A stretch of 47,645 nt of DNA from Actinomycetes bacterium. Lineage in GTDB: Bacteria > Actinomycetota > Acidimicrobiia > Acidimicrobiales > JAJZXF01. The position numbers were made by a program, and so were the translations under genes. Positions 5,954 to 26,491 of the stretch are shown here, one piece after another (positions within the stretch are counted from its first letter, which is position 1; every line of letters begins with the position of its first letter). The notes under the pieces are model-generated. The model saw nothing but the letters and a program-made list of their open reading frames with translations. It did not search any database and was not told where the DNA came from. The DNA is taken from NCBI GenBank assembly GCA_021802485.1, contig JAJZXF010000012.1:1-47645 (forward strand), in the 5' to 3' direction.

Positions 5954-6580
5954 TTGATCGATTATCACGGGATTGCGGTTGCCGCGGCTCCAGCGGCACA
6001 GCACTTGTTGCTCGCCGCTGCCACAAAGGCCAAGGCCGCGGCGCCTCAATCATCCCCGTTCAGCTCGCTGCTGCTCATTGGGGTTTTTGTCCTGATCGCG
6101 TACTTCCTCTTGATGCGGCCCGGAAAGAACCGAGCACGTGCTCAGCGGGCTATGCACGAGAGCATGTCGGTGGGTGACCAGGTCGTGACGAACGGCGGGC
6201 TTGTTGGTGAGATCGTCGAGGAGGCAGGGGACCGCCTCATCATTGAAGTGGCTCCAGATGTGACGGTCGCGGTGATGCGCCAATACGTTGTTCAACGCAT
6301 CCCAGCTAGCCCGGCGAGCGATAACGAAGCTCTTGATGCCTCTGGCGTTGGCTTGAGTGCTGAGGATGACCGATACGCCTACGACGATGACGCTGAAGTT
6401 GGCCATGACGAAGTTGCTGATAGCGACGATACCTACGACGAGGACGTAGGCGCTCACAATGACGAAGTTGCTGATCGCGAGGATGAGTCCGACGGTGGCG
6501 CTGGCACGGGCCATGACGACGAGACCGGCGGTGCCGCCCACGGGCGCACGGGTCCCGAGAGGCCAGGACAGGATCAATGA
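5954..6580 (+). CDS. yajC: Preprotein translocase subunit YajC with long acidic tail
   Basis: YajC is a small single-pass protein that associates with SecDF. Starting at TTG 5954, a hydrophobic segment (about residues 37-55, SLLLIGVFVLIAYFLLMRP) is followed by the conserved cytosolic stretch MSVGDQVVTNGGLVGEIVEE (about residues 71-90). Residues 120-208 are an unusual Asp/Glu-rich tail with an internal repeat of the type DEVADxxD, nearly doubling the usual length of about 110 residues. A weak Shine-Dalgarno (agaaggg) lies 12 bases before the TTG, so the start is not certain. The stop overlaps secD in ATGA, indicating translational coupling. Confidence 0.9.
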   Translation: MIDYHGIAVAAAPAAQHLLLAAATKAKAAAPQSSPFSSLLLIGVFVLIAYFLLMRPGKNRARAQRAMHESMSVGDQVVTNGGLVGEIVEEAGDRLIIEVAPDVTVAVMRQYVVQRIPASPASDNEALDASGVGLSAEDDRYAYDDDAEVGHDEVADSDDTYDEDVGAHNDEVADREDESDGGAGTGHDDETGGAAHGRTGPERPGQDQ

Positions 6581-8103
6581 AGGCAAACCGTTTGCTCGTG
6601 AGCGTGATCGTGTTCACCGCGATTTCCTTCGGAGCGATGGTGGGGACCCTCTCAGCGGGGCTCGCGCCGAAACTTGGCCTGGACCTCGCGGGTGGTATAT
6701 CGGTGGTGCTGAAGCCAGCCCACAAGGTCAACTCAAGCGTTCTGACTGAGGCGATCAACATCATACGCAACCGTGTGACAGGCCTTGGGGTGACACAGCC
6801 GAACATCGGAAGCCAAGGCAGCGATATACTAGTGGAGCTGCCCGGAATCAAGAACCGCGCAAAGGTCATTCACATCATCGGAGAGACCGCTCAGCTCTTC
6901 TTCCGCCCGGTGCTATGCGCAGCGCCCGTCTACAGCCCGCCAGCGAAGAAGGCTGGGGCCAAGCCAGCTGCATCTCCTGGTCCGCTCCCGTCGAGCTGTC
7001 CCTCGACCTACCAGGACAGCGCGGCGAACCTGAAGGTGAACACGGCCAACAGCACTCCGACATCCAGTCCACCGCCCGACCCCGCCTTGGCCGCGTACCC
7101 TACCACCCCGCCTAGCCAGGACGTTGCCAGCAAGCCGGTGTTGCTCTACTATCCCGCCTTTCACCAGCGGTATCTTCTTGGCCCCGCGGGCGTGACTGGC
7201 AATGCGCTGAAGTCTGCGACAGCGCAGCTTTCGTCGGGAGGATCATGGGAAGTTGCCTTCAAGCTCACCGGCTCTGGCTCTCCGAAGTGGGATGCTCTTG
7301 CAAAGGCAAACTTTCATCAGATGGTCGCGGTTGACCTGGACGGCAAGATCCAGTCCGCTCCGCTGATCCAGCCCGGCCAAGCAGCGTTTACCAGCTTTAA
7401 CGGCTCGGGCGTCATCAACGGCACGAACTTCACCCAGGCGACAGCGAAGAGCCTCGCTCTCGTCCTGCAGTACGGCGCGCTTCCAGTGCGCCTGGTTCGC
7501 CAAACGGTCCAGTCCGTATCGCCAACCCTTGGCAAGTCATCGCTGATCGCGGGGCTCGCGGCAGGGCTTGTGGGTCTGCTGCTCGTGATGCTCTACATGA
7601 TCTTTTACTACCGCGGCCTCGGCGTGGTGGTGATCCTGGGGCTTGCGACAACTGCAGCGTTGCTGTGGGCGATCATCTCGTTGTTGGGGCATACAAGCGG
7701 TCTGACGCTGGACTTGTCCGGGGTGGTGGGTATGGTCGTGTCGGTCGGCATAACAGTGGACTCCTATGTCGTGTACTTCGAGCGCTTGAAAGACGAGGTG
7801 CGCGCGGGACGATCCGTTCGATCCTCAGTCGACAGGGGTTTTGCCAGAGCGTACCGGACCGTTGTCGCGGCGGACCTTGTATCGCTCATCGGTGCGGTGC
7901 TCTTGTACCTGCTGTCGATCGGCCCGGTGAAGGGATTTGCCTTTTTCCTCGGGTTGTCGACGGTGCTCGACCTCATCTCAGCGTTCTTCTTCACGCGGCC
8001 GTTCGTAATCCTCCTTGGCCGTAGCCCGAGATTCACGCAGGCACGGATGCTCGGCGTAGCATCTGGGCTGGCTGCTGCGCCAGCACCGGAGGGGATCGCA
8101 TGA
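6577..8103 (+). CDS. secD: Protein translocase subunit SecD
   Basis: SecD with SecF uses the proton gradient to help pull secreted proteins through SecYEG. The protein has an N-terminal transmembrane helix (residues 7-27), the conserved LGLDLAGGISVVL motif, a periplasmic P1-type domain containing a Pro/Ala/Ser-rich insert (about residues 125-185, typical of actinobacterial SecD), and a C-terminal membrane domain. The latter has VVGMVVSVGITVDSYVVYFERLKDE, where D is the expected proton-relay residue, and GFARAYRTVVAADLVSLIGA. Length is 508 residues. Four-base ATGA overlaps join it to yajC upstream and secF downstream. Confidence 0.96.
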   Translation: MKANRLLVSVIVFTAISFGAMVGTLSAGLAPKLGLDLAGGISVVLKPAHKVNSSVLTEAINIIRNRVTGLGVTQPNIGSQGSDILVELPGIKNRAKVIHIIGETAQLFFRPVLCAAPVYSPPAKKAGAKPAASPGPLPSSCPSTYQDSAANLKVNTANSTPTSSPPPDPALAAYPTTPPSQDVASKPVLLYYPAFHQRYLLGPAGVTGNALKSATAQLSSGGSWEVAFKLTGSGSPKWDALAKANFHQMVAVDLDGKIQSAPLIQPGQAAFTSFNGSGVINGTNFTQATAKSLALVLQYGALPVRLVRQTVQSVSPTLGKSSLIAGLAAGLVGLLLVMLYMIFYYRGLGVVVILGLATTAALLWAIISLLGHTSGLTLDLSGVVGMVVSVGITVDSYVVYFERLKDEVRAGRSVRSSVDRGFARAYRTVVAADLVSLIGAVLLYLLSIGPVKGFAFFLGLSTVLDLISAFFFTRPFVILLGRSPRFTQARMLGVASGLAAAPAPEGIA

Positions 8104-9542
8104 GAGTCCCCTTGAGCAAGGGCGGCAGGTCGGCAGGCGGGGCGAGGGTGAATCCCGATGATGGGGCGACTGCGTCCCAAGCGGGCGCGACGCGGCCGAA
8201 CGCGTTTGTGCGCCTTTACCGGGGGGAGACGTCGTATGACTTTGTAGGCCGCAAGAAGATTTGGTTCCTGATCTCGGGGTTGATCATCCTTGCGGGCGTC
8301 GCATCCCTTGCAACCCGGGGGCTCAACCTTGGGATCGACTTCAGGGGAGGCACGTCTTGGCAGGTCAATGCTAACGGCATGAGCGTCGGTACCGCTAGGT
8401 CCGTTCTGTCGAAGATGGGGCTGCGGGGAGCTACAGCGGTCTCACTCGGGGCCGGCTCTAGCCGTAAGATCGAGGTTCAGGCGGACCTGCTTGCGGAGCC
8501 GGCTGCAAAACGGGACGCTACTGAAAAGGCGGTGTCAGCTGCTCTCGCAAAGGCGACGAAGCAGAGCCCGTCGGCTGTGACGCTCAAGGATGTGGGGCCT
8601 ACGTGGGGCGGTCAGGTGACGTCCAAGGCTGAGCTCGCTTTGATCGTGTTCTTCATCGCGATCGCGCTGTACATCACGTTCCGCTTCGAGTGGAAGATGG
8701 CTGGGGCCGCGCTTATCGCAGTGGTTCACGACATACTGGTGACAGTTGGGATCTACTCGCTCGCTGGTTTCCAGGTCACTCCGGACACTGTCGTAGCCTT
8801 CCTGACGATTCTCGGCTACTCGCTCTATGACACGATCGTGGTATTCGACAGGGTGCAGGAGAATGCGAAGGGGCTTGGGGCCTCTGGCCGTATGACGTAC
8901 GCGAGCACGGTCAACCTTTCGATGAACCAGGTCATGGCGAGGTCTTTGAACACCTCACTGGTTGCGGTGCTGCCTGTTGCCTCGGTGCTCTTCGTCGGAG
9001 CGTACGTCCTTGGCGCGACGACGCTGCAGTACTTCGGGCTTGCGCTGTTCATCGGCCTTATGACCGGAGCGTACTCGTCGATCTTCATCGCGTCTCCGCT
9101 GCTCGCTGGGTTCAAAGAGCGTGAACCGCGCTACGTCACGATACGGCAGAAGCTGCAGGCGAGGGGCGATGCGGCGCTTGCGCTGACGCCGCTCGCTGCT
9201 GCTAGCAGCACGCTTGGAGGCAGCGATACCTCCGGGCGCCGCTCCGAGGCCGCTCGGAGGTCTTCGAATCAGAGAAGGGCGGCTGCGCGGGTCGCAGACG
9301 CGAGTGCGAGGCGGGCGGCCCCAGATCTGCTCCGACCCAGCGGCGACGGGCTTGTTGCAGGTACCAGCGTCGCTGGAGATGGTGCGGGATCGATCGTTCA
9401 ACCTGGCCCAGTGGGGGACTCCGCAGCGCGCTCTGCCCCGCGAGGACATAGCGGGCCCGCTCGCAAGAGCGCTTCTGGCGCTGCACGTTCCAGGCCAGCA
9501 AGGACGGCGCCGAAGCCAAGGAAGAAGCGGCGGAAGCGCTAG
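8100..9542 (+). CDS. secF: Protein translocase subunit SecF with basic C-terminal tail
   Basis: SecF is the partner of SecD. The N-terminus carries FVGRKKIWFLISGLIILAGV and LGIDFRGGTSWQV, the SecF signature, followed by a small periplasmic domain and five further membrane helices including VAFLTILGYSLYDTIVVFDRV and NQVMARSLNTSL. The conserved domain ends around residue 345. The remaining 130 residues are low-complexity, rich in Ala, Ser and Arg, and end in a Lys/Arg cluster. The length of 480 residues is therefore well above the usual 300-400. The gene overlaps secD by four bases; rel begins 20 bases after its stop. Confidence 0.95.
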   Translation: MRVPLSKGGRSAGGARVNPDDGATASQAGATRPNAFVRLYRGETSYDFVGRKKIWFLISGLIILAGVASLATRGLNLGIDFRGGTSWQVNANGMSVGTARSVLSKMGLRGATAVSLGAGSSRKIEVQADLLAEPAAKRDATEKAVSAALAKATKQSPSAVTLKDVGPTWGGQVTSKAELALIVFFIAIALYITFRFEWKMAGAALIAVVHDILVTVGIYSLAGFQVTPDTVVAFLTILGYSLYDTIVVFDRVQENAKGLGASGRMTYASTVNLSMNQVMARSLNTSLVAVLPVASVLFVGAYVLGATTLQYFGLALFIGLMTGAYSSIFIASPLLAGFKEREPRYVTIRQKLQARGDAALALTPLAAASSTLGGSDTSGRRSEAARRSSNQRRAAARVADASARRAAPDLLRPSGDGLVAGTSVAGDGAGSIVQPGPVGDSAARSAPRGHSGPARKSASGAARSRPARTAPKPRKKRRKR

Positions 9543-21220: not shown

Positions 21221-23896
21221 AGCGATCCATACGAACCAGCGGCCTCTGCGATGCAGGGGGTGCCGATCCTGAACTCGTCCTCAGCGCAGACCCAGTACGG
21301 GCCTACCCCAAGTGTTTTCCAGCCCTTCCAGGGGACGAGTTACCATTCGCAGCTGAACTCAACCGGTGTCGCTCTCAGTCCTCCAGACCCAGTGATAGCG
21401 ACAGACGGGGAAACTGTCGCAGAGGCGGTCAATGCCACGTTGAGCTGGTACCCCACCTCTCCCGGAGCTGGTCAGTCAGGCGTGTTGAATCTCAACTCCC
21501 TTTTCAACCAAACTTTCCTGGACAGTACCTACGGCGCGTTTGGCCCACTTGGGGGTCCGGGCCCAAACGGAGAGACCTGTAGCAATTTCGCAGACCCGCG
21601 CTTGTTCTACGGTAGGAATACCTGGTTCCTGACTGGCCTGCTTGTCGCGGCATGTCCCGCCACGTTCCACTACACGGCGGTTGTAATTGGCGCGACAAAT
21701 GATCTTGCTGCGAACACCGCGGCGGGATGGGCCTTCTATGTGATCGACCAGAACACCCCGGATTACACTAAGAGCCAGCAGGGGTTCTATCACTGCTGTT
21801 TCGACCAGCCCCGTATGGGAGTGAATACGAGTGATGTCGTTGTCACGTTTGATGTGTTTCACAACCCAGATGGTTCTTCACGACACCCCTACCCGTGTTG
21901 GCAGTCTCCCAAGAATAAGGAACAGATATGGGCGCTCGCGAAGGTGGATCTTGTCAACGCGGCGGACGCGGCCGACAGCGGTGGTTCTGGATCGAACATG
22001 TGCAATAACTGCGAGTCATCACAGATACTTTGCAAAGGCCCAAGCTGCCGCTATGCGTTTCCGGTATCTGGCTCGCCCTTCATTGTTTACAATGCTTCTC
22101 AAGCCAGCGGCGGGACGGGCCCATACTTTGGGCTCATGGCACTAACTGGAACGCCGGGTGTCTTTCCGGGTATCGCCCTTACGCTGGCTACGGATAAAGC
22201 CTATGGGATTCCGCTGACGTCATGCTTGAGCGACTCGTGGCCAGGCCCGTGCGCAACGACTGAACCACCGCGAGCGGTCAACGCGGCGACGAAAGCCTTC
22301 CGGATTCCCCAAGGACCTGGCGGGCCACTAACTCCCCAAATTGATGACGACAGGGTGCTCTCTGCTGCGTATGAGGCCAATCCATACCCTGGTATTATTG
22401 GCGAGATATGGGTGAGCGGCAACACGGGCTGCGATCCCGGGGGCTCTGGTGCACCTTTGACGATATGCGCCTACGTGTTCAAGATTGCAATACTCTCGTT
22501 TACTCCGGGAGGGGAGAATTCAGCTACTCCGGGAGGGGAGATTTTGGCGTGGCTTACTCGGCAGTTTCTTGTAGGGAGTCCCGGTGTCAGCTTCATGTAC
22601 CCTGCTGTGGCATTGGACGGTTGCCAAGCAGATATTCCCTCTTCTTTTGATTGTCCCGAGAACCTCTACATCTCGATGACCGAGGCGGGTAACTCGGTCA
22701 AGAATACCTCTGTGAGCAGCTACCCATCAGCGGTGGTGGCTACGGTGCCAGGCGATCTCGTGCTTCACAACGTGGTGATATATTCGTATCCGTTGCAGGC
22801 GTTCTCGATGGTGACGCTGCAACCGGGGCTTCAGAACGACGGGACTTGGCTTGCCCAAGGATGGCCTGCCAATAAGAATTGCGATGGTAGCGATCGTTGG
22901 GGGGACTACCTGGCGGCCTTTCCCGATCCCAGTCGTGCGAACCTCGTGTGGGTGGTCTCAGAGGACGTGGTGTCGAATACCCCAGTTGCTGTGAACAACA
23001 GTTGTACTGGTGGGCTGACGACCTGGGCTTACGGTTGGAGTACCACGATAGCTGAGGTCTCCTTGCGGCCAACGCCGACATTGTCAAGCAAGGGCCTATG
23101 GATGGCTACTGCGGGTGGTGATGTGCTCACTTTCGGTCAAGCGGCAAACGTCGGCTCGAACGCTGGCCCAGTGAAGACCCTCGACGAGCCAGTAGTTGGC
23201 ATGGCTGCTAGGCCGCATGGCAATGGCTACTGGCTCGTGGCATCTGATGGTGGCGTCTTCGCTTACGGCGATGCGGCCTTCTACGGCTCGATGGGCGGCG
23301 AGCATCTCAACAAACCGATGGTCGGCATCGCTGCAACCCCGGATGGCAACGGTTATTGGACGGTGGCATCTGATGGTGGCGTCTTCGCCTACGGCGATGC
23401 TGTGTTCCACGGCTCGATGGGCGGCAAGCACCTCAACAAGCCAGTAGTTGGCATGGCTGCTACCCCGGATGGCAACGGTTATTGGACGGTGGCATCTGAT
23501 GGTGGCGTCTTCGCCTACGGCGATGCTGTGTTCCACGGCTCGATGGGCGGGCAACCGATAAGCGCACCGATAGCTGGTATGGCATCCCCACAGGCTGGTG
23601 GTGGCTACTGGCTTGTCGCGAAAGACGGCTACGTCTATGCCTTCTTCGGTTCCTCGACATCACCGACAACGACAGTATCGCCAATCAGCGACGTGGCAAG
23701 CATCGTCGCACCCCGCTCTGCGGGCGGCACGGACAGCGCCTGTTACTACGTGGTTGGTGTCTATATGCACGTCTATGTAGGCGGCGGCAGCGCCTGTGTC
23801 GCCGACACCAAGAATTGGTACGAAACGCTAAACACCACTCCAGGGTGGCCAGGTTTCTTGCCCAAGCACCCGATCGTTGGCGTTGCAGCTGAATAA
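21146..23896 (+). CDS. Large propeller-like surface protein with 42-residue C-terminal repeats
   Basis: The frame starts at an ATG overlapping the previous stop (TGATG) and gives 916 residues without a signal peptide. Residues about 40-620 resemble secreted sialidase-like proteins: PDPVIATDGETVAEAVNATL, then NFADPRLFYGRNTWFLTGL, with many Cys, Asn and aromatic residues. I cannot assign a catalytic activity. From about residue 650 there are 42-residue repeats of the type GYWTVASDGGVFAYGDAVFHGSMGG: four clear copies and about two degenerate ones, probably beta-propeller blades. Lack of an export signal is odd for such a protein and supports the idea that it was once, or still is, joined to the upstream ORF, which has the hydrophobic N-terminus. 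Export by reinitiation alone seems unlikely. Confidence 0.75.
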   Translation: MARIRQAPFQVAPTPRGTPALLPAVSDPYEPAASAMQGVPILNSSSAQTQYGPTPSVFQPFQGTSYHSQLNSTGVALSPPDPVIATDGETVAEAVNATLSWYPTSPGAGQSGVLNLNSLFNQTFLDSTYGAFGPLGGPGPNGETCSNFADPRLFYGRNTWFLTGLLVAACPATFHYTAVVIGATNDLAANTAAGWAFYVIDQNTPDYTKSQQGFYHCCFDQPRMGVNTSDVVVTFDVFHNPDGSSRHPYPCWQSPKNKEQIWALAKVDLVNAADAADSGGSGSNMCNNCESSQILCKGPSCRYAFPVSGSPFIVYNASQASGGTGPYFGLMALTGTPGVFPGIALTLATDKAYGIPLTSCLSDSWPGPCATTEPPRAVNAATKAFRIPQGPGGPLTPQIDDDRVLSAAYEANPYPGIIGEIWVSGNTGCDPGGSGAPLTICAYVFKIAILSFTPGGENSATPGGEILAWLTRQFLVGSPGVSFMYPAVALDGCQADIPSSFDCPENLYISMTEAGNSVKNTSVSSYPSAVVATVPGDLVLHNVVIYSYPLQAFSMVTLQPGLQNDGTWLAQGWPANKNCDGSDRWGDYLAAFPDPSRANLVWVVSEDVVSNTPVAVNNSCTGGLTTWAYGWSTTIAEVSLRPTPTLSSKGLWMATAGGDVLTFGQAANVGSNAGPVKTLDEPVVGMAARPHGNGYWLVASDGGVFAYGDAAFYGSMGGEHLNKPMVGIAATPDGNGYWTVASDGGVFAYGDAVFHGSMGGKHLNKPVVGMAATPDGNGYWTVASDGGVFAYGDAVFHGSMGGQPISAPIAGMASPQAGGGYWLVAKDGYVYAFFGSSTSPTTTVSPISDVASIVAPRSAGGTDSACYYVVGVYMHVYVGGGSACVADTKNWYETLNTTPGWPGFLPKHPIVGVAAE

Positions 23897-24112: not shown

Positions 24113-26491
24113 ATGACCCGACGGCGCTGGAGGGATCTGGGATTGGCACCTATCGTCGCTGCAGTTGCAACTGTTGCGCTGCTCGCAGTAAGTACTGCGC
24201 CAGCATTTGCACAGCCGGCAAGCTGGACGGTTACCCCGACGCCCAGCATCACCTCGGGGTTTTGGGTCGGGTTCGGTGGCGTTTCCTGTGCTGGTGCTAA
24301 TTTCTGTGCTGCAGTTGGAAGCTATGTTTTGAACTCGACCGACACGCCGCAGACCCTGATCGAGACTTGGGATGGCGCGAAGTGGTCCCTCAGCGCGAGC
24401 AAGGACTCATCCTCGTCGGAGAGGAACGGGCTTGCTCGCGTTGACTGTGTAAGCGCCACGTTCTGTGTTGCGGTCGGAGATTCGTCTTCAGGGTCAATCC
24501 TCTATCCGACCTACCACACGCTCGTCGAGACCTGGAACGGGACGAGCTGGTCGATCACGCAAAGTCCCAATCCGTCTTCTACCGAGACCGCGACGCTATC
24601 GGGAATCTCATGTGTAAGCATTACGGACTGCAAAGCGGTTGGTTGGTACGACAACGCCTCGGGAATCGCACAGACCCTTGCGGAGACCTGGAACGGCACA
24701 ACCTGGTCCATCACGCAAAGTCCCAATCCGTCTACTACCGCGACCGCGGCGCTATCGGACGTTTCATGTGCGGACTCGGGCTACTGTACCGCGGTGGGTA
24801 GCTACAACGCGCCTAATGCGATGCAAACCCTCATCGAGACCTGGAACGGGACCAGCTGGTCCATCACGCAAAGTCCCAATCCGTCTGCTACCGAGAACGC
24901 AGTTCTTCGGGCCATCTCGTGTACGAGCCAGAGTTACTGCGTAGCGGTTGGCCGCAACGACGCTGCTCCCAGCATGAGACAAACCCTCATCGAGACCTGG
25001 AACGGCGCCAGCTGGTCCATCACACAGAGCCCTGATACTTCTGCGTCGACATCGAATGTGCTGTATGGCGTGTCGTGTGTGTCTGCTCAAGGTTCGACAT
25101 CGTGTGTTGCGGTGGGTTACTACGAAGGCCAAGGCGGTTGGCAGACCCTTATTGAGAGCTACGACGGAGTCTCCTGGGCAATCACTGAGAGCCCGAACTC
25201 GTCGGCAAGCCACCCGGCCAGCTTAGACGGGGTCACTTGTACCTCTTCGAGTAGCTGCTTTGCGGTCGGAGGAGCGCACTATGACGCTCTCGTACTAACC
25301 GGCTCATCTGTGCCCGCAACCCCGTTTAACGTCACGACCACATCGCTTCCCCAGGCGGTGGTGGGCCAGAGTTACTCGGCTAGGCTCGGAACAACTGGTG
25401 GTGTGTCGCCATATACGTGGTCGCTCTCCAGCGGATCCCTTCCACAGGGCCTTTCGCTATCTGCATCAGGTGTGATCTCAGGAGTAGCGACGAAGCCTGG
25501 CACCTACAGCTTTGTCGTTAGCGTCACGGACTCGAGCAGTCCACCCCAGTCCACCAAGGGCACTGTTCCCATCACCGTTGCTGACGCTCCTGTGCTCTCA
25601 GCAAAGGGCTACTGGGAAGTGGCCTCCGACGGAGGGCTGTTTGCCTTCGGCGACGCTCACTTCTACGGATCTATGGGTGCAAAGCCCCTCAACAAACCAA
25701 TCGTCGGCATCGCTACAACCCCAGATGGGAAGGGATATTGGGAGGTCGCCTCAGACGGAGGGCTGTTTGCCTTCGGTGACGCTCACTTCTACGGATCCAT
25801 GGGTGCAAAGCCTCTCAACAAGCCAATAGTCGGCATCGCTACAACCCCTGATGGAAAGGGATATTGGGAGGTCGCCTCAGACGGAGGGCTGTTTGCCTTC
25901 GGTGACGCTCACTTCTACGGATCCATGGGTGCAAAGCCTCTCAACAAGCCAATAGTCGGCATCGCTACAACCCCTGATGGAAAGGGCTACTGGGAAGTGG
26001 CCTCCGACGGAGGGCTGTTTGCCTTCGGCGACGCTCACTTCTACGGATCCATGGGTGCAAAGCCTCTCAACAAGCCAATTGTCGGCATCGCTGCTACCCC
26101 AGATGGGAAGGGCTACTGGGAGGTCGCCTCGGACGGAGGGCTGTTTGCCTTCGGCGACGCTCACTTCTACGGATCTATGGGTGCAAAGCCCCTCAACAAA
26201 CCAATTGTCGGCATCGCTACAACCCCTGATGGAAAGGGATACTGGGAGGTCGCCTCAGACGGCGGACTCTTTGCCTTCGGCGATGCCCACTTCTACGGAT
26301 CGATGGGTGCGAAGCCTCTCAACAAGCCAATTGTAGGCATCGCAGCAACCCCAGATGGCATGGGCTACTGGGAGGTTGCCTCAGACGGGGGGCTGTTTGC
26401 ATTCGGCGACGCTCACTTCTACGGATCCATGGGTGCAAAGCCGCTCAACAAGCCAATCGTCGGAATCGCTACATATGTGGTGGCTGGATGA
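24113..26491 (+). CDS. Secreted protein with two seven-fold repeat arrays joined by an Ig-like domain
   Basis: From ATG 24113 (ggggcgtgggaag just upstream) the protein is 792 residues. A Sec signal peptide, LAPIVAAVATVALLAVSTAPAFA, precedes QPASW. Residues about 45-400 hold seven repeats, each centred on SCxxxxxCxAVG followed by QTLIETWNGTSWSITQSPNP; the regular Cys pair suggests one disulfide per blade of a seven-bladed propeller. A putative-Ig (He_PIG-type) domain, AVVGQSYSARLGTTGGVSPY to VVSVTDSSSPP, covers about 410-490. The C-terminal 294 residues are exactly seven 42-residue repeats (GYWEVASDGGLFAFGDAHFY...). No anchor is visible; probably secreted or envelope-attached. Function unknown; adhesion or polysaccharide binding is a guess. 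The frame is open upstream to 23957, but that part arises from the MITE. Confidence 0.85.
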   Translation: MTRRRWRDLGLAPIVAAVATVALLAVSTAPAFAQPASWTVTPTPSITSGFWVGFGGVSCAGANFCAAVGSYVLNSTDTPQTLIETWDGAKWSLSASKDSSSSERNGLARVDCVSATFCVAVGDSSSGSILYPTYHTLVETWNGTSWSITQSPNPSSTETATLSGISCVSITDCKAVGWYDNASGIAQTLAETWNGTTWSITQSPNPSTTATAALSDVSCADSGYCTAVGSYNAPNAMQTLIETWNGTSWSITQSPNPSATENAVLRAISCTSQSYCVAVGRNDAAPSMRQTLIETWNGASWSITQSPDTSASTSNVLYGVSCVSAQGSTSCVAVGYYEGQGGWQTLIESYDGVSWAITESPNSSASHPASLDGVTCTSSSSCFAVGGAHYDALVLTGSSVPATPFNVTTTSLPQAVVGQSYSARLGTTGGVSPYTWSLSSGSLPQGLSLSASGVISGVATKPGTYSFVVSVTDSSSPPQSTKGTVPITVADAPVLSAKGYWEVASDGGLFAFGDAHFYGSMGAKPLNKPIVGIATTPDGKGYWEVASDGGLFAFGDAHFYGSMGAKPLNKPIVGIATTPDGKGYWEVASDGGLFAFGDAHFYGSMGAKPLNKPIVGIATTPDGKGYWEVASDGGLFAFGDAHFYGSMGAKPLNKPIVGIAATPDGKGYWEVASDGGLFAFGDAHFYGSMGAKPLNKPIVGIATTPDGKGYWEVASDGGLFAFGDAHFYGSMGAKPLNKPIVGIAATPDGMGYWEVASDGGLFAFGDAHFYGSMGAKPLNKPIVGIATYVVAG
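25607..26488 (+). repeat. Seven tandem 126-bp repeats
   Basis: Seven head-to-tail units of exactly 126 bp (42 codons) run from 25607 to 26488, ending directly at the stop codon. Protein identity between units is nearly complete (differences at IATT/IAAT and PDGK/PDGM), and the DNA differs mainly at synonymous sites, indicating recent expansion or gene conversion. The homologous units of the upstream gene (about 23100-23600) are more diverged. Confidence 0.95.

Follow-up and report, generated by a model that had tools for sequence, protein, structure and literature searches.

The operon yajC-secD-secF, at positions 5954-9542 of the window (the whole 47,645-nucleotide stretch analyzed, contig JAJZXF010000012.1 of an Actinomycetes bacterium of the order Acidimicrobiales, assembly GCA_021802485.1), encodes a YajC with a long acidic C-terminal tail and a SecF with a long basic tail that ends in a short run of Lys and Arg. 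Such tails are a phylum-wide habit of the Actinomycetota, with this genome near the upper end. The tip of the SecF tail is conserved and independent of YajC, and the size of the YajC tail covaries with that of a third charged tail, on YidC. This broader pattern of three charged tails replaces the pairing of YajC and SecF proposed in the initial annotation and hints at a shared docking of ribosomes. We tentatively suggest, with a little less than even confidence, that throughout the phylum ribosomes are docked by the tips of SecF and YidC, with the YajC tail as a counterweight to them.

Oppositely charged tails on YajC and SecF

By the profile boundary, the YajC tail comprises 93 residues (6299-6577, plus strand) and has a net charge of -26; its last 92 residues include 20 Asp and 10 Glu versus four Arg and no Lys, giving a calculated isoelectric point (pI) of 4.05. 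It is predicted to be of low order, with blocks at a predicted local distance difference test score (pLDDT) of 47-58 in the AlphaFold model versus 86-97 in the domain. Two copies of a 54-nt (18-codon) tandem unit, 78% identical, lie within it (6378-6485, plus strand). The SecF tail, which follows transmembrane helix 6 (TM6), comprises 143 residues (9111-9539, plus strand) with seven Lys and 24 Arg versus seven Asp and three Glu, that is, a net charge of +21 and a calculated pI of 12.0; residues 406-470 are predicted to be disordered (pLDDT below 50). Being long, basic, and of predicted low order, it has the composition of a YidC/Oxa1-type tail. Both tails should lie in the cytosol, a position taken from the established topology: SecF has six transmembrane helices with the C-terminus inside, and YajC has its N-terminus outside and its C-terminus inside. 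The initial annotation had put the extra residues at about 90 for YajC and about 130 for SecF and had asked for the pI values; both lengths and the opposite charge are borne out.

The SecF tail closes with RKKRRKR (9519-9539, plus strand) directly before the stop codon. The 2.86 Mb genome holds 54 sites at which seven MRN codons precede TRR, 32 of them true stops, and the SecF end is the only one found with seven Lys/Arg out of seven; the terminal run exceeds chance in its own genome. A congener (G001) has both tails as well (YajC net -22, SecF net +21), and its acidic YajC tail contains a different 24-nt unit in 3.5 copies. The two YajC tails are alike in composition, not in sequence. Elsewhere in the window's genome, a 141-residue open frame (L217, 370-792, minus strand) has a strongly basic C-terminus, ending TRKRRNKKR.

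Spread and independence of the tails

In total, 147 yajC loci, including that of the window, were read. They were hand-chosen among genomes with a YajC match, which was present in 36 of 40, 186 of 198, and 159 of 197 genomes of the three sets behind the choice. Fourteen loci in which SecF or a tail was missing or cut off were dropped, leaving 133 (49 from the order, 42 from the rest of the class, and 42 from the rest of the phylum), with the reduced-genome family f46 represented by two genomes. We defined a basic tip as at least five Lys or Arg among the last 10 residues. SecF has such a tip in 48/49 genomes of the order, 38/42 elsewhere in the class, and 28/42 elsewhere in the phylum; the corresponding counts for readable SecD tails are 0/49, 0/41, and 2/24. 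The SecF tail ranges from 26 to 246 amino acids within the order, yet its end is conserved: each of the three terminal positions is Lys or Arg in 45 of the 49 genomes, and the consensus is near PPRPRKKxRR.

Among named genomes, 80 loci were fetched, 75 with a complete SecF and 61 with both tails; the basic tip occurs on 64 of the 75 (e.g., in Streptomyces, Mycobacteroides, and Acidimicrobiia). Acidic YajC tails are common too, their length ranging from none to 144 amino acids in the order and class. Neither tail occurs in the two f46 genomes read, and SecF tail length increases with guanine-cytosine (GC) content (r = 0.43 by phylogenetic independent contrasts). Because SecF tips and acidic YajC tails are widespread in the phylum, the opposite charges are not a local oddity; an explanation specific to this genome is rejected, given that such tails are also found in the congener and through most of the phylum. 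Two loci of family f85 (L179 and L180) have SecF tails that are net acidic (-21 and -12) yet end in a basic tip (RRKRR and RRRRR). A different SecF end, close to TKGPGSGKKKKKKR, is found at L146, L147, L148, L150, L151, L155, L158, and L174, which represent several families of the phylum and have very acidic YajC tails (-12 to -35).

The initial annotation had suggested that the two tails bind each other and thereby hold SecDF-YajC together, and had proposed their co-occurrence as a check. With presence set at a net charge of -5 for YajC and +5 for SecF, both tails are present in 61 of the 133 genomes, SecF's only in 49, YajC's only in nine, and neither in 14 (Fisher p = 0.17). The tails therefore occur independently of each other, the outcome that the annotation itself had named as telling against its proposal. 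In families f43, f51, and f62, the majority of the genomes sampled keep the SecF tip with a YajC tail of 2-11 residues, and the extreme of YajC tail acidity, at -38 in G018, is accompanied by a SecF tail of only 26 amino acids.

A SecF was obtained from 21 of the 26 genomes without a PF02699 match. The tip is kept without a convincing YajC in G003, G024, G142, G163, G077, and G228, and also in the YajC-less G271, G281, G312, and G272, whose SecDF frames are long and probably fused; it is absent (four or fewer Lys/Arg in the last 10) in the YajC-less G033, nine f82 genomes, and G248. A YajC alignment (A2) run on the 21 genomes gave nothing convincing, with weak partial matches (E of at least 0.004) in nine, and a very divergent YajC may still be present in the 21 since its absence rests on PF02699 and this alignment. 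The f82 genomes (G233, G247, G261, G270, G280, G290, G300, G310, and G320) are of high quality, have no detectable YajC, and possess a SecF that ends shortly after TM6 without a tip. Two high-quality f83 genomes (G234 and G291) have neither a detectable YajC nor a SecF match.

Net charges of the YajC and SecF tails correlate weakly in the raw data, with rho at -0.32 for the order and -0.35 for all genomes; by contrasts on the SecF+SecD tree, r is -0.11 for the order (p = 0.44), -0.07 for order and class together, and -0.17 (p = 0.051) for the full set. YajC acidic versus SecF basic residue counts, and the two tail lengths, show a modest covariation across the full set (r = 0.26 for the counts and 0.31 for the lengths). 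A private YajC-SecF pair is rejected, as the tails occur independently, the contrasts lie near zero, and the tip is kept without detectable YajC. The pairing hypothesis is thus largely refuted; what stands of the initial annotation is the opposite charge, the predicted low order, and the ribosome or nucleic acid as a plausible partner for the basic tail.

YidC and possible docking at the ribosome

YidC, which is encoded elsewhere in the genome, likewise carries a long basic tail (in the window's genome, 203 amino acids by the profile boundary, net +15). It was sought in 60 genomes and the window's own; 58 matched, and without G044, in which YidC is cut off, 57 remain, namely 29 from the order, 20 from the class, and eight from the phylum, the latter picked with their YajC and SecF tails known. 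The basic tip is present on YidC in 28/29, 17/20, and 3/8 of these, respectively, and the YidC and SecF ends are near-identical in G006 (PQPKPRKKKKR and PPRPRKKKKR) and G019 (QPRPRKKKRK and PPRPRKKRRR). By contrasts, YajC and YidC net charge are linked at r = -0.60 (p = 8e-7, n = 57), at r = -0.62 in the order only (p = 3e-4, n = 29), and at r = -0.57 without the extreme G018, where YajC is at -38 and YidC at +31. YajC charge tracks YidC more closely than SecF (contrasts of -0.60 versus -0.38 over all and -0.62 versus -0.28 in the order).

Two control tails were run, and neither settles length versus charge. The C-terminal tail of bS16 in the same 57 genomes follows neither YidC, SecF, nor YajC charge by contrasts (absolute r at most 0.27, p > 0.05). 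SecD net charge does not follow YajC, and the lengths of these two tails correlate weakly (rho 0.31 over all). Long disordered tails spreading in general are rejected as the only cause of the YajC-YidC association, given that neither SecD charge nor the bS16 contrasts follow; the association lies in length and total charge rather than in density. A literature search, mostly of papers outside subscription, found neither the SecF tip nor the YajC-YidC tail covariation described.

YajC is widespread and has, to our knowledge, no agreed function, and SecDF is modeled as a periplasmic pulling device. In the reading that we favor tentatively, the tails belong to a pattern of the whole phylum, in which accessory subunits of the Sec holotranslocon bear long tails that evolve fast, should lie in the cytosol, and each keep one sign of charge: basic with a short Lys/Arg tip at the end on SecF and YidC, and acidic on YajC. 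The two tips would act as flexible hooks that dock translating ribosomes, through ribosomal RNA (rRNA) or ribosomal proteins, at the holotranslocon, and the YajC tail would loosely offset their charge, compete with rRNA for them, and in this way tune docking. If so, actinobacterial SecDF would also extend to the ribosome through a contact that YajC adjusts, and SecDF-YajC would have a cytosolic role.

We infer this arrangement because basic YidC and Oxa1 tails bind ribosomes and, in Escherichia coli, YajC modulates the YidC-SecYEG interaction. Excerpts of PMC10741985, PMC8595059, and PMC10572626 describe binding to ribosomes or ribosomal proteins by the basic tail of YidC2, by those of YidC from Rhodopirellula and Oceanicaulis, and by that of Oxa1, and a passage in PMC8546722 describes the modulation by E. 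coli YajC. In YidC2, Rhodopirellula/Oceanicaulis YidC, and mitochondrial Oxa1, as here, a long Lys/Arg-rich tail of low order extends from a holotranslocon protein; the difference is that here a similar terminal tip is found on both YidC and SecF of one genome, and thus also outside the insertase family, where ribosome binding is putative. SecF lies outside the YidC/Oxa1/Alb3 fold (PF02096), its sole matches at E <= 1 being PF02355 and PF07549. The YajC tail could compete for a basic partner much as the acidic D/E-repeat tails of the HMGB1 type autoinhibit nucleic-acid binding, according to the part of PMC10250230 that treats them; in HMGB1, however, the partner is in the same chain, whereas that of YajC would be in trans. 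A further version, in which the cytosolic tails are balanced, the YidC and SecF tips are interchangeable at the ribosome, YajC tail length evolves to match YidC, and YajC is an electrostatic docking gate, is in our estimate unlikely.

Several observations weigh against ribosome docking with a YajC counterweight. The YajC-YidC test was post hoc, the charge densities of the two tails are uncorrelated, and adding the three tail lengths to the regression removes the significance of the charge terms. The control is not wholly silent: bS16 and YidC charge correlate in the raw order data at rho = -0.51 (p = 0.005) and by contrasts at -0.23 (p = 0.24), and their length contrasts give r = 0.37 (p = 0.045). 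In the window's genome, YidC terminates in GGAKDGKA; its last 10 residues include three Lys/Arg and form no strong tip. YidC tails of +23 in G003, which also keeps the SecF tip, and +14 in G033 persist without detectable YajC, so the basic tails do not need an acidic YajC tail. The S. mutans tail pull-down, as given in a passage of PMC8546722, did not recover YajC. Also against our reading, YajC and SecF charge densities correlate within the order before phylogenetic correction (rho -0.35, p = 0.014), not by contrasts, and the net-charge contrast of the two reaches r = -0.35 (p = 0.016) in the order when G036 and G018 are dropped by hand and r = -0.31 (p = 0.047) in the phylum rows. It is significant in the 57-genome YidC subset (r = -0.38, p = 0.003), which holds the eight phylum genomes chosen for extreme YajC/SecF tails, and not in the order rows of that subset alone (r = -0.28, p = 0.14). 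Across 24 of the phylum genomes, SecF net charge runs opposite to SecD net charge (rho -0.79).

Of the other explanations, a largely neutral origin is doubtful, though it merits attention: tandem duplication would lengthen disordered tails in GC-rich genomes, with charge sign loosely kept for solubility. The distinct tandem units in the YajC tails of the window and its congener, the rise of SecF tail length with GC, the lack of either tail in the two reduced f46 genomes, and a YajC-YidC association in size rather than density all fit such an origin. It accounts poorly for a SecF tip kept at the very end across the class despite a variable linker, for a charge sign retained in most tails, and for SecD net charge and bS16 contrasts that do not follow YajC. 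The tips might instead serve the membrane, contacting anionic lipid head groups and securing the C-in topology (the positive-inside rule), with a YajC tail that has no specific partner. We think this improbable: the tips do terminate cytosolic tails of polytopic proteins, and that of SecF is independent of YajC; however, SecD shares the fold and also ends in the cytosol, yet it has no tip in any of the 90 genomes of the order and class with a readable SecD tail, and a tip at the end of a tail of up to 246 amino acids reaches beyond what topology needs.

Mutual binding of the YajC and SecF tails is, in view of the independence described above, very unlikely. Opposite charge, raw correlations (p < 0.05 in four of the five groupings, with rho between -0.32 and -0.39), and the presence of two long tails in several lineages agree with it, whereas independent occurrence, near-zero contrasts in order and class, and a SecF tip that persists without detectable YajC do not. 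Finally, a long YajC C-terminus that ends at the secD start could be an ApdA-like translation-arrest sequence regulating secDF. YajC is a small membrane protein whose hydrophilic C-terminus overlaps secD, and ApdA and ApdP lie upstream of secDF2 according to portions of PMC7897499 and PMC10987492. The search for a RAPP-like motif, the kind that marks the Sec-linked arrest peptides ApdA, ApdP, and ApcA, in the last 25 residues, limited to the 102 YajC tails of at least 10 amino acids, found 4/48 in the order, 0/17 in the class, and 0/37 in the phylum, against shuffle means of 4.0, 0.6, and 1.25, and the tail ends are unconserved. With four motifs in 102 tails, not above shuffles, the arrest peptide is rejected as scarcely credible.

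The operon, its folded cores, and other repeats

The genes lie on the plus strand in the ordinary arrangement of a SecDF-YajC operon, in the order yajC (5954-6580, 208 amino acids, TTG start), secD (6577-8103, 508 amino acids), and secF (8100-9542, 480 amino acids). Four-base ATGA overlaps join yajC to secD (6577) and secD to secF (8100); the initial annotation had likewise described the genes as overlapping. SecD, the control from the same operon, has a C-terminal tail without a basic tip. Each protein matches its own Pfam families (PF02699, PF21760, PF22599, PF02355, and PF07549). YajC belongs to PF02699 (residues 38-113, E 1.2e-19, 70.4 bits against a cut-off of 28.2); its single transmembrane helix (residues 35-54 in the AlphaFold model) precedes the domain, and the two together span 6065-6292 on the plus strand. 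SecF belongs to SecD_SecF_C (PF02355; residues 148-340, E 4.2e-55, 186.5 bits, cut-off 20.5) and Sec_GG (PF07549; 32.9 bits, cut-off 20.3).

Compared with the solved SecDF-YajC proteins (3aqp/5yhf and 5mg3), the genes, their order, and the folded cores are the same by Pfam and by PDB matches over the SecF core. E. coli SecF (5mg3_F, 323 amino acids) aligns to SecF residues 38-356 and Thermus thermophilus SecDF (3aqp) to residues 45-342, so that in both entries the chain stops close to the point at which the long charged tail starts.

As read from the translation, the P1 region of SecD contains a Pro/Ala/Ser-rich insert of some 70 residues (window about 6930-7140). Farther along the window, a 126-bp (42-codon) tandem unit forms arrays of about 2.9 copies (23189-23550) and 6.9 copies (25603-26473), and a third tandem array, at 24521-25023, has a 156-bp unit.

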